Source: Candidatus Woesearchaeota archaeon
Lineage (GTDB): Archaea; Nanobdellota; Nanobdellia; Woesearchaeales; UBA583
Assembly (NCBI GenBank): GCA_027858315.1
Contig: JAQICV010000072.1
Coordinates: 1 to 62,621 of the forward strand
Direction: 5' to 3'
Length of the DNA stretch: 62,621 nucleotides
Part shown: piece after piece, positions 38,213-42,295 of the stretch
How positions within the stretch are numbered: position 1 is the first letter of the stretch
Layout of the letters: every line of letters starts with the position of its first letter
Translations under genes and position numbers: made by a program
The notes under the pieces: model-generated
Database searches by the model: none
Told to the model about the DNA's origin: nothing
Seen by the model: the letters and a program-made list of their open reading frames with translations, nothing else

Positions 38213-38239
38213 GAATCTTTGATTTTTATTTTATTAATA

Positions 38240-38266
38240 ATTCTTTAAAGAATAGTTATATAAATT
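38240..38266 (+). promoter_or_regulatory. Promoter of the XRE-CBS gene with palindromic operator
   Basis: The perfect palindrome ATTCTTTAAAGAAT (38240-38253) abuts the TATA box (AGTTATATAAATT, 38254-38266) whose centre is 26 bp before the ATG. The same palindrome, extended to 20 bp, lies at 38874-38893 before metK. It is a likely autoregulatory site for the XRE protein. Confidence 0.55.
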
Positions 38267-38285
38267 AAGAATAATTAAAAAATAT

Positions 38286-38870
38286 ATGATACAACTAAAA
38301 CAGGATTTTACTAAAAATGAAATTTTAGAGGTTGCTAGAGAATTTAAGAGACGAAGAAATTTTCTTGATATCTCACAATTGAAGCTTGCAAAAATTGCAA
38401 ATTTATCACAATCAATTGTCAATAAATTAGAAAATGGTAAAATTGATCCTACTTATTCTACTATTTTGAAAATTGAAAAAGCGCTTAGTGAACAAGAAGA
38501 AATTTCAAATGTCAAAGCTGAGAGTATTATGATTAAAGAGATTATATCAGTAAAACCTAATTGTAAAATTTTTAATGTTTTAGAACTTATGAGAAAAAAT
38601 GATTTTTCGCAACTTTTGGTTTTTAAAGATAATATACCTATTGGAACAATTTATGAAAAAACTATTCTTGATGTTATAACACAGAAAATAGATATTTATG
38701 AAACACAAATTAAAAAATTTATTGAACCAAATCCTATTATTGTTCCTCCCGAATATAGTGCATCTGATTTGAGTTATATTTTTCAAAATCATAAAATTAA
38801 ATTTGTTTTGGTCGGGAAAAATAATGAAGTATTAGGACTTATTACTAAAAGTGATTTATTTAAACAATAA
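38286..38870 (+). CDS. XRE-family regulator fused to two CBS domains
   Basis: The 194-aa protein has an XRE helix-turn-helix (about 17-72: LDISQLKLAKIANLSQSIVNKLENGKIDP) followed by two CBS modules (about 80-131 and 141-194). Paired CBS domains bind adenosyl ligands such as AMP, ATP or SAM. This architecture is a known archaeal regulator class. The gene sits 135 bp upstream of metK, and both promoters carry the same palindrome, so it is a good candidate for a SAM- or adenylate-sensing regulator of metK and of itself. The ligand is an inference. Confidence 0.85.
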   Translation: MIQLKQDFTKNEILEVAREFKRRRNFLDISQLKLAKIANLSQSIVNKLENGKIDPTYSTILKIEKALSEQEEISNVKAESIMIKEIISVKPNCKIFNVLELMRKNDFSQLLVFKDNIPIGTIYEKTILDVITQKIDIYETQIKKFIEPNPIIVPPEYSASDLSYIFQNHKIKFVLVGKNNEVLGLITKSDLFKQ

Positions 38871-38873
38871 GTA

Positions 38874-38893
38874 ATTATTCTTTAAAGAATAAT
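38874..38893 (+). promoter_or_regulatory. 20-bp palindrome upstream of the metK promoter
   Basis: ATTATTCTTTAAAGAATAAT is a perfect palindrome ending 13 bp before the metK TATA box. Its core 14 bp are identical to the site at the XRE-CBS promoter. It starts 4 bp after the stop of the XRE-CBS gene. Confidence 0.6.
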
Positions 38894-38906
38894 AATGTCA
38901 AGACGC

Positions 38907-38916
38907 TTTATATAAG
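38907..38916 (+). promoter_or_regulatory. metK promoter TATA box
   Basis: TTTATATAAG at 38907-38916 is centred about 25 bp before the ATG at 38936, which opens the leader ORF, not metK itself (39006). The predicted transcript therefore begins exactly at the leader ORF. No TATA box lies at the proper distance from 39006. Confidence 0.55.
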
Positions 38917-38935: not shown

Positions 38936-39013
38936 ATGGATAATAAGAATACACAGTCAAAAATCTTTGATTTTTTCGGTGCATTTTTTCTCCACTTAAA
39001 ACAAAATGGATAA
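38936..39013 (+). repeat. metK leader: duplicated gene start, hairpin element and 25-codon leader ORF
   Basis: ATGGATAA at 38936-38943 repeats the start of metK (39006-39013). The first ATG opens a 25-codon frame (MDNKN..., stop at 39011-39013) that ends inside metK, overlapping its ATG by eight bases. In between lies the hairpin AAAAATC TTT GATTTTT with outer CAC/GTG pairs (38952-38981), closely related to 19751-19778 and, at its ends, to the rnz leader. The rnz leader ORF has the same length of 25 codons plus stop. Confidence 0.65.
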
Positions 39014-40250
39014 AAAATATTATTTTACATCAGAGAGTGTTACAGAAGGACACCCAGATAAGATTTGTGATCAAGTATCAGATGCTGTTCTTGATGCTTG
39101 TTTAAAACAAGACCCTTATTCTAGAGTTGCATGTGAGAGTGCGACTAAAACTGGAATGATTATGCTTTTAGGAGAGATTACTACAAATGCAAAATTAGAT
39201 TATCAAAAAATAGTTAGAGATAAAATTAAAGAAATTGGTTATGATGATTCAGATAAAGGATTTGATTATAAAACTTTAAATTTACTTGTTGCAATTGAAC
39301 AACAGTCCCCAGATATTGCTCAAGGAGTTAATGAAGGAGAACAAAAAGAGATAGGCGCAGGTGATCAAGGTGTAGTCACTCTTGATAATCGTTCGGAACC
39401 TTGTTCACAGACCAAAGAACTTGGTGCTGGTGATCAAGGTATAATGTTTGGTTATGCTATTAATGAGACTCCTACTTATATGCCTTTGACTATTGATTTG
39501 GCACATAAACTTACATTTCAATTATCTAAGGTTAGAAAAGAAGAAACATTGTCTTATCTTAGAGCTGATGGGAAAACTCAAGTTACTATTGAGTATGAAA
39601 ATGATGTTGCAAAAAGGATAGATGCAATTGTTGTTTCAACTCAACATAGTGAGAATGTTACGCTAGAACAATTAAAGATAGATATTATTGAATATGTAAT
39701 TAAACCTATTATTCCTAATGAATTATTGGATCCAAATACTAAATATCATATTAATCCAACAGGTAAATTTGTAATTGGTGGACCTCAAGGAGATGCAGGA
39801 CTTACAGGTAGAAAGATTATTGTAGATACTTATGGAGGACATGGGGCTCATGGAGGAGGAGCTTTTAGTGGAAAAGACTCAACAAAAGTTGATAGGTCTG
39901 CTGCATATATTGCTAGACATATTGCAAAAAATATTGTTGCAGCAGAATTAGCAGATAAATGTTTAGTTCAATTATCTTACGCCATTGGTGTTACTGAACC
40001 AACTTCAATTCATGTTGAAACTTATGGGACTGAAAAAGTTCCTAAAAATGATTTAATCAATGCAATTAAAACTATATTCCCTTTAACTCCAGGAGGAATT
40101 ATTGATTACTTAAAACTTAGGAGACCTATTTTTTCAAAGACTGCAGCATATGGACATTTTGGTCGTGATGATAAAGATTTTACTTGGGAGAGTTTGAATA
40201 AAGTTAATGAATTAAAAGAAAAATTAATTCAAAAAGTTATAATTAATTAA
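39006..40250 (+). CDS. metK: S-adenosylmethionine synthetase, bacterial type
   Basis: The 414-aa enzyme makes SAM from methionine and ATP. It is the bacterial/eukaryotic MetK family (GHPDK at 15-19, [37 protein letters not shown]), not the separate archaeal MAT family, so it was probably acquired by transfer. Ordinary MetK has one GAGDQG; here KE(I/L)GAGDQG occurs twice (114-122 and 137-145) around a 14-residue spacer, a 23-codon in-frame duplication in a variable loop. No ribosome site is visible at 39006, so expression may depend on the leader ORF. It is followed by metG. Confidence 0.93.
39345..39440 (+). repeat. In-frame 69-bp direct repeat inside metK
   Basis: 27 bp at 39345-39371 and 39414-39440 (both encoding KE(I/L)GAGDQG) match at 22 of 27 positions, offset by 69 bp. 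The spacer starts TGTAGTCACTC, which also occurs almost exactly (TGCAGTCACTC) at 19651-19661, between two tRNA-end copies. ATCAAG/CTTGAT and GTG/CAC can fold into a hairpin around 39364-39386. Confidence 0.5.
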
Positions 40251-40285: not shown

Positions 40286-42295
40286 ATGAGTAAGGATAAA
40301 AAAAATAACAAGAATAATTTCTATATTACAACACCTATTTATTATACAAGTGGCAAACCACATTTAGGACATGCTTACACTTCAATTGCTTGTGATGTTT
40401 TAGCTAGATGGAATAGAAACATTGGGAAAAATGTTTTTTTTTCTACAGGGACTGATGAACATGGACAAAAAGTTGAACAAAATGCAAGAGCTGCAGGAGT
40501 TGAGCCTAAGGAATTTGTAGATAATTTAATTCCTGCGTTTAAAGAACAACTTGAAAAATTAAATATTTCTAATGATTATTTTGTTAGAACAACTGATGAA
40601 CACCATAAGAAATTTGTTCAGGATATGCTTCAAAAATCATTTGATAATGGAGATATTTACAAGGCAAAATATGAAGGTTTGTATTGTATTGATTGTGAGC
40701 AATATTACAAGGAAGAAGATTTAATGGATGATAATATTTGTCCGATTCATAAAAAGAAAGTATCTAAGATGAGTGAGGAGAATTACTTTTTTAGACTTTC
40801 TAAATATGAAGATAAGTTGTTAAAATTATATGAAGATAATCCTGATTTTTTATCCCCACATTCTAAAGCTAAAGAAACCATTAATAGAGTAAAAGAAGGA
40901 TTGCAAGATATTAGTATTTCAAGAAATAAGGAGAGTTTGCAATGGGGAATTGAACTTCCATTTGATAATACACAGGTAGCATATGTTTGGTTTGATGCTT
41001 TGTTTAATTATGTTTCTTTGTTAGATAAGAATGATAAGAATGAGTTTTGGCCTGCAAGTGTTCATGTTGTTGGAAAAGATATTATGTGGTTTCATAAGGT
41101 TTATTGGCCAGCTTTTTTGATGAGTACCGGTTATGAGATGCCAAAGAAAGTTTTTGCGCATGGTTGGTGGACTGTTGATTCAGAGAAAATGGGTAAGGCA
41201 TTAGATAATGTTATTGATCCAATTAAAGTTGCTCAAAAGTATGGTGTGGATGAATTTAGATATTATATGTTAGCTCTTGGCGCATTTGGAGATGACTTAG
41301 ATTTTTCTTATGAAACATTTGCTGAGAAAATTAATAATGAATTGAATAATGATTTAGGAAATTTGATTTCAAGGGTTCATGCAATGACTAACAAGTATTT
41401 TGGTGGCAATGTTCCTAATCAAGAAAACTTAAGCCAACATGAGATTGATTTAGTTGAACAACTTAATATTTTTAAACCTTTTAATGAAGCAATGCAAAAT
41501 TTAGAATTTAATAAAGCAATTAATATTTTATGGAAAGCAATTAGAGAAACAAATGTATATGTTAACAAAGTTGCTCCATGGAAAGAGGAAGATATGAAGA
41601 GACTATCTGCAATCATGAATACTTTAAATTTTGCAATGAAAACATTTGCTGACTATATTGATTGTTTCATGCCTTCAAAAGCTCAAAGAATCAGAAAGCA
41701 ATATAATTTTGAGAAAGGAAGTTTTGATAAGTTTGAAGCAATTCCTGCTGGACATACTTTAGGTGAGAAAGATAATTTATTTGAAAAGATTAAACTTGAG
41801 AAGAAAGAAGAACCTAAAGAAGAGGTAAGAGAAGGTTTTAGAAAATTAAATTTAAAAGCTGCTCAGATTGTTAAAGTTGAATTACATCCAGATTCTGAAA
41901 AATTATTTGTTTTACAAGTTGATTTAGGTAGTGAGAAGAGACAAATTGTCTCTGGGCTTCAAGGCATTTACAAAAAAGAAGAATTAGAAAATAAAAAAGT
42001 AATTGTTATTGCAAATCTTAAAGCTGCAAAACTTGGAGGTTATGAATCTCAAGGTATGATTCTTGCATGTGAAGATCCAGAAATCGGACATGATGATTGT
42101 GGATTGCTTACAACTACACTAAAAGTAGGAGCGCAAATTTCTTGTGGAAAAGATGTAGCAGATAATGATGCTCAAATTAAATCAAAAATATTTCAAAAAA
42201 CTGAGATGTTTGGAAAAAGCGGTAAAGTGCTTTACAATGATACTGAATTGAAAGGTGTTGGAATTGATAGAGACTTTAAAGGCAAAATTTGTTAA
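40286..42295 (+). CDS. metG: Methionyl-tRNA synthetase with C-terminal tRNA-binding domain
   Basis: The 669-aa class I synthetase has HIGH as HLGH at 26-29 and a CxxC zinc knuckle (YCIDCEQYY). The KMSKS loop reads KMGKA at 301-305 followed by LDNVIDP, so two positions of the signature differ. A helical anticodon domain follows, then an EMAPII-like OB domain from about 512 (AAQIVKVELHPDSEKLF) as in dimeric bacterial MetRS. A TATA box near 40256-40264 is 26 bp upstream. It follows metK by 35 bp. Both enzymes use methionine and both look bacterial. Confidence 0.92.
   Translation: MSKDKKNNKNNFYITTPIYYTSGKPHLGHAYTSIACDVLARWNRNIGKNVFFSTGTDEHGQKVEQNARAAGVEPKEFVDNLIPAFKEQLEKLNISNDYFVRTTDEHHKKFVQDMLQKSFDNGDIYKAKYEGLYCIDCEQYYKEEDLMDDNICPIHKKKVSKMSEENYFFRLSKYEDKLLKLYEDNPDFLSPHSKAKETINRVKEGLQDISISRNKESLQWGIELPFDNTQVAYVWFDALFNYVSLLDKNDKNEFWPASVHVVGKDIMWFHKVYWPAFLMSTGYEMPKKVFAHGWWTVDSEKMGKALDNVIDPIKVAQKYGVDEFRYYMLALGAFGDDLDFSYETFAEKINNELNNDLGNLISRVHAMTNKYFGGNVPNQENLSQHEIDLVEQLNIFKPFNEAMQNLEFNKAINILWKAIRETNVYVNKVAPWKEEDMKRLSAIMNTLNFAMKTFADYIDCFMPSKAQRIRKQYNFEKGSFDKFEAIPAGHTLGEKDNLFEKIKLEKKEEPKEEVREGFRKLNLKAAQIVKVELHPDSEKLFVLQVDLGSEKRQIVSGLQGIYKKEELENKKVIVIANLKAAKLGGYESQGMILACEDPEIGHDDCGLLTTTLKVGAQISCGKDVADNDAQIKSKIFQKTEMFGKSGKVLYNDTELKGVGIDRDFKGKIC

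Follow-up and report, generated by a model that had tools for sequence, protein, structure and literature searches.

A predicted XRE-CBS regulator of methionine and SAM genes in DPANN and other archaea, with a palindromic operator shared by its own promoter and metK

The locus and its palindrome

Does an archaeal DNA-binding protein with a pair of CBS domains control both its own gene and the neighboring gene for SAM synthesis through a palindrome that occurs at both promoters? This question is raised by a locus in the window, meaning the whole stretch of 62,621 nucleotides that was analyzed. It forms a single contig (C72) of an archaeal genome that spans 1.77 Mb in 105 contigs, and the closest relatives of this genome are MAGs labeled Nanoarchaeales DT_72 and archaeon UBA583. 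Three genes that lie downstream of a gene for a P-type ATPase follow one another on the plus strand: the XRE-CBS regulator gene (38286..38870, ATG at 38286, 194 aa), metK (39006..40250, ATG at 39006), and the gene for methionyl-tRNA synthetase (MetRS; 40286..42295), which is also a neighbor of XRE-CBS in Micrarchaeota. The preliminary description of this locus had named the domains correctly, as profile matches reveal an N-terminal HTH_3 domain (38.8 bits against a Pfam cut-off of 23) followed by two CBS domains (a Bateman pair of 67.4 bits in two stretches, above the cut-off), and a metK product of the bacterial type of methionine adenosyltransferase, or MAT (TIGR01034, 599 bits). The CBS pair has the canonical fold with CBS matches in the PDB, and the AlphaFold2 model of the whole protein has a mean pLDDT of 93.

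The same description placed one palindrome at both promoters, and its coordinates hold. The first operator, O1 (ATTCTTTAAAGAAT, 38240..38253), lies 2 bp upstream of the XRE-CBS TATA box (TTATATAA, 38256..38263, plus strand), against the BRE/TATA region, and relatives carry it in the same position class. This TATA box is 22 nt upstream of the ATG at 38286, so archaeal promoter geometry, from which the promoter positions of this gene were inferred, leads one to expect a transcription start near the ATG and a leaderless mRNA. The second operator, O2, is a perfect 20-bp palindrome (ATTATTCTTTAAAGAATAAT, 38874..38893) with the core ATTCTTTAAAGAAT at 38877-38890. It is followed on the plus strand by a CA dinucleotide at positions +9/+10 after the core (38899..38900) and, 16 bp after the core, by the metK TATA box (TTTATATA, 38907..38914).

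Two other features of the intergenic DNA can be mentioned. A 25-codon frame (38936-39013) shares 8 nt with the start of metK (ATGGATAA). Its ATG would be leaderless, as it lies about 25 bp after the metK TATA box, at the expected beginning of the metK mRNA; the frame could be a leader peptide or could have arisen by chance. Also, the 14-mer AATCTTTGATTTTT has two copies, one upstream of O1 (38214-38227) and one in the metK leader (38962-38975).

Exact copies of ATTCTTTAAAGAAT number three in the whole genome, compared to none for the reversed control, and relaxed matches (up to two mismatches) are not enriched in the window, with seven seen and five expected. The third exact copy, on contig C52, appears to be coding, and long frames are found there only when TGA is read as sense, with none under the standard code. 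This TGA-sense stretch (L001, G000:C52:15327-18340) is in the same genome bin, and the contig probably represents either contamination or a recoded element. Frequent occurrence at random sites, which had been named as grounds for abandoning the proposal, is thus not what the genome holds: the exact site is present at two plausible places per 1.77 Mb. The pattern ATTCYNNNNRGAAT matches 34 sites in the source genome, mostly within genes, and none of its intergenic sites elsewhere in that genome adjoins an evident methionine gene. As judged from this distribution, the local regulon probably consists of XRE-CBS and metK alone.

Conservation of the operator and of a composite promoter

Relatives were gathered by protein similarity rather than by DNA similarity, within the order first and then as 80 named loci, and the 150 bp upstream of each gene were searched for ATTC-N6-GAAT, with 239 further genes from these loci as controls. 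The motif precedes 36 of 46 metK genes and 55 of 79 XRE-CBS genes, the latter having the own-promoter operator that autoregulation calls for, compared to 3 of 239 control genes. Gene starts were assigned automatically, and p-values are optimistic because the loci are phylogenetically related. When the same half-sites were set apart by spacers of 2-5 or 7-10, zero matches except one were found at XRE-CBS and metK, and dinucleotide shuffles gave a mean of 0.3-0.4 matches. The general consensus is TATTCC-N4-GGAATA, of which the source genus carries an ATTCT...AGAAT variant. A divergent pair may have one site that counts toward both of its genes, whereas at tandem loci (the window, L047, and L069) each gene has a separate site. 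Thus, by sequence comparison, the proposed circuit of a regulator with itself and metK gains in strength, since the shared operators are conserved far beyond the source genome.

Conservation is uneven among the closest relatives. The same-genus genome G002 has a degenerate metK site (ATTCTTAAAAGAAC) and a regulator gene without a site, and in three others of the genus (G001, G003, and G004) neither metK nor XRE-CBS was found, which agrees with a linked circuit but is partly an effect of assembly completeness. The metK operator by itself is found in 24 of 40 cases with the regulator versus 3 of 10 without it, a difference in the same direction as the other evidence that is not significant (p=0.15). 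One further locus, L083 (JAFCCF010000036.1), is labeled as an Aminicenantes bacterium and bears the archaeal XRE-CBS/metK pair; its public label looks wrong.

Gene context extends beyond SAM synthesis. XRE-CBS adjoins bacterial-type metK in 43 loci, but elsewhere its neighbors are HcyBio, for homocysteine synthesis (L075, L086, and L113), metY-metX-metW (L084 and L111, the former Pfam-checked), cobalamin-independent methionine synthase (metE) with MTHFR (L110, L114, L122, and L125, the first Pfam-checked), or MetRS (L065, L070, and L107, the last Pfam-checked). A strict operator pattern, TATTCYNNNNRGAATA, occurs at two to four sites in each of five whole genomes. In the Micrarchaeote G064, where XRE-CBS lies beside MetRS, one of the two strict sites is the promoter of an unlinked metK. 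Similarly, in the Bathyarchaeote G062, where it lies beside metE, one of three strict sites precedes an archaeal-type MAT (PF01941), which is unrelated to bacterial metK, and another precedes a gene assigned by eye to a rhodanese-like sulfurtransferase. Archaeal-type MAT promoters carry the operator in three of six readable cases, two of these being near-identical. The operator is therefore conserved at methionine and SAM genes independently of linkage. A tandem pair of operators also precedes the gene for a 192-aa protein at L214 (G063:C31:24996-25045), a possible extra target.

Alignment of unique metK promoters on the operator uncovers a composite arrangement. C at +9 and A at +10 are present in 56 of 56 promoters, and A at +13 in 93%. 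The distance from operator to TATA box has a median of 16 bp (IQR 16-18), and that from TATA box to ATG ranges from 24 to 133 bp. CA at -8/-7 of the TATA box is seen in 9% of control promoters and so is not a general promoter feature. HcyBio, metY, and MetRS promoters have the same operator-CA-TATA layout, which argues that the module does not merely reflect shared metK ancestry. XRE-CBS promoters lack the CA, and in most of them the operator directly adjoins the TATA box or runs into it. The shared palindrome is thus sited differently at the two promoters, against the TATA box at XRE-CBS versus about 16 bp upstream of it, with an invariant CA, at metK. These positions suggest that the two promoters are probably under different modes of control.

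Across 99 genomes of the order, the module used as a pure DNA pattern matches 66 distinct sites by hand count, compared to 2 for the reversed control, and its sole match in the source genome is at metK. At least 40 of the 66 sites precede metK or methionine-synthesis genes, at least 33 of them metK; seven more precede genes for MetH-type homocysteine methyltransferases (L239, L246, L255, and L268, with L255 and L268 assigned by eye), MTHFR (L232 and L257), and HcyBio (L260). Further sites lie upstream of genes for a cysteine desulfurase-like aminotransferase, methyltransferases, a radical-SAM protein, and a MAT-like protein, and about one-third of all sites precede genes with no methionine or SAM assignment. 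Among the proteins behind a module, that at L244 (1501 onward, plus strand) has a weak match, below the cut-off, to PF02772, the middle domain of SAM synthetase, and is possibly a divergent MAT.

A slightly looser module was matched in 34 of 59 genomes around a Micrarchaeote, with 1 match for the control, and its targets there include bacterial-type MAT, archaeal-type MAT, MetRS, and SAM hydroxide adenosyltransferase, among others. At L113, the HcyBio promoter departs from the module pattern by one base of spacing. Around a Methanocellaceae genome, the strict module was found in none of 60 genomes and hence is no general feature there. The scope of the circuit as first proposed therefore needs widening: self and metK remain, and in other archaea MetH, MetE, MTHFR, HcyBio, MetY/X/W, MetRS, and SAM hydroxide adenosyltransferase join them. 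The last of these is a SAM-consuming enzyme, with modules upstream of its genes at L281 and L301 and also L298, and would be a puzzling target if the regulator simply raised SAM.

Predicted mode of control and ligand

Comparative sequence analysis thus provides operators, an association with methionine and SAM genes that does not depend on linkage, a rigid module, and co-occurrence of that module with the regulator. The best explanation overall, which we regard as highly probable, is that XRE-CBS is a regulator of methionine and SAM metabolism in the source archaeon and in many others, chiefly of the DPANN group. A dimer of the protein would read the palindrome ATTC-N6-GAAT (widely TATTCC-N4-GGAATA) with its HTH domains. 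At its own promoter, where the operator abuts or overlaps the BRE/TATA region, binding should exclude TBP and TFB, leading to autorepression. The operator of metK, and elsewhere that of HcyBio, metY, MetRS, and other genes, lies about 16 bp upstream of the TATA box, and an invariant CA immediately precedes the BRE. This makes contact with the initiation complex probable, and the bound protein would touch that complex from the typical position of an archaeal activator. The CBS pair probably senses SAM or a closely related adenosyl compound, which would couple metK expression to SAM supply.

Archaeal activator sites typically lie upstream of the BRE, and repressor sites can overlap the BRE/TATA region (PMC5512572). 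By this rule, XRE-CBS would repress its own gene and act positively on metK, where the position and rigid spacing of the operator fit an activator site. The rule is a guide rather than proof, as a repressor might also sit at a fixed place, and we incline only slightly toward activation of metK. A plausible though less favored reading keeps the same regulator and operator but makes the protein a pure MetJ-like repressor that, when bound to SAM, represses both itself and metK. MetJ and other bacterial regulators of metK that respond to SAM do repress, the geometry for autorepression is clear at XRE-CBS, and a dimer with bulky CBS domains, at a distance of 8 bp from the BRE, could obstruct TFB; a fixed spacing could suit such a repressor as well. 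Against pure repression, the operators at metK and the other targets stand off the TATA box at a fixed upstream distance with the invariant CA, which is the layout described for archaeal activators (PMC5512572). Furthermore, the tandem arrangement in the window would let the metK operator move onto the TATA box, yet the 16-bp spacing is kept.

For the ligand, the combination of a CBS pair with methionine and SAM targets makes SAM a fairly likely candidate. Residues T187 and D190 of the G-x-x-T-x-x-D motif are nearly invariant, a pattern that also fits AMP or ATP, and a search of the structure library matches CBS modules that bind AMP, ADP, or ATP as readily as it matches SAM binders. It is conceivable, but rather unlikely, that the ligand of the pair is instead AMP/ATP (as a measure of energy charge), MTA, or SAH, such that SAM synthesis is tuned to energy or methyl-cycle status. 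The nearest folds and profiles, among which are many CBS proteins that bind AMP, ADP, or ATP (AcuB, MJ1225, and CNNM), lend weight to this alternative, whereas a regulon centered on methionine and SAM (metK, MetH/MetE, MTHFR, HcyBio, MetY/X/W, MetRS, and SAM_HAT) speaks for SAM. Binding of SAM and MTA by an archaeal CBS pair has precedent, as in MJ0100 (Lucas 2010, as cited in PMC4276868), and the CBS pair of that protein is matched by the XRE-CBS family profile (E 3.7e-13).

We infer that XRE-CBS itself binds the operator and represses its own gene. A different regulator, encoded elsewhere and with XRE-CBS as merely another target, is improbable. Some genomes have the regulator without the module, and conversely the module is kept in two genomes, G030 and G043, where no regulator was found in assemblies that are 94-95% complete, and in G031, where XRE-CBS is represented by a broken copy only; the latter three would accommodate a regulator encoded elsewhere. 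However, XRE-CBS is the sole DNA-binding protein consistently beside the operator across phyla, and the module is present in 30 of 39 genomes with XRE-CBS versus 5 of 21 without it (p ~1e-4, relatedness ignored). The recognition helix, VSQSLIAKIE, is nearly invariant, as is the operator. Residue 46 in this helix is Ala in nearly all relatives; in the group formed by the window protein and L046, L047, L069, and L273, the three readable loci with Asn all carry the T5/A10 operator variant versus 6 of 64 others, although few independent events underlie this count. A third residue, Thr, is found in G006 together with mixed operator sites. The pattern is suggestive of coevolved specificity. Finally, a chance palindrome or a generic promoter or terminator element of an AT-rich genome, with which the chance-level relaxed matches in the window would agree, is ruled out by the genome-wide rarity of the site, its spacer specificity, the control genes, and the module counts against the reversed control.

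Known systems and biological meaning

Control of methionine genes in Proteobacteria by MetJ, MetR, SahR, and the SAM riboswitch has been surveyed (PMC4239095). The likeness to these systems is pathway-responsive control of metK and methionine-synthesis genes, but there is no homology: the archaeal system would use an XRE HTH and a CBS pair at a BRE/TATA promoter, and MetJ is a ribbon-helix-helix protein whereas XRE-CBS is built from HTH_3 and CBS domains. No Rfam match to a SAM riboswitch was found in the metK leader, and only a tRNA was found in the window.

Among archaeal proteins, MJ0100 has a CBS pair of the same superfamily, with SAM binding known for MJ0100 and predicted for XRE-CBS. MJ0100 is a member of an enzyme family with a CBS pair and is not an HTH regulator. 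The HcyBio genes, which belong to this enzyme family, are neighbors and predicted targets of XRE-CBS in three loci. Archaeal HTH-CBS predicted regulators of the COG3620-like kind have the same domain layout, and no function, operator, or regulon for them was found in the open-access literature searched. With regard to position class, the metK operator resembles the sites of the activators Ptr2 and EarA upstream of the BRE, which differ in sites and targets, and the XRE-CBS operator resembles those of archaeal repressors that overlap the BRE/TATA region (PMC5512572). Control of methionine or SAM genes by Ptr2 or EarA was not reported in the literature examined. Similarly, no description of an archaeal methionine/SAM regulon of this type was found in the open-access literature searched.

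To our knowledge, none has been described. We consider it an even proposition that the full picture is an undescribed regulon, extending from DPANN to Bathyarchaeota, in which XRE-CBS represses itself, activates metK and methionine genes through the operator-CA-BRE-TATA module, and governs both nonhomologous families of SAM synthetase. Bacteria are well known to regulate SAM synthesis by feedback through MetJ, SahR, and riboswitches, and an archaeal counterpart is absent from the literature searched. The analysis names a protein family, a DNA site, and a set of targets and states a promoter rule, all directly testable. If correct, the prediction would offer a rare regulatory handle on DPANN archaea, whose gene regulation has received little study, as well as an example of one regulator attached to two unrelated SAM synthetases.
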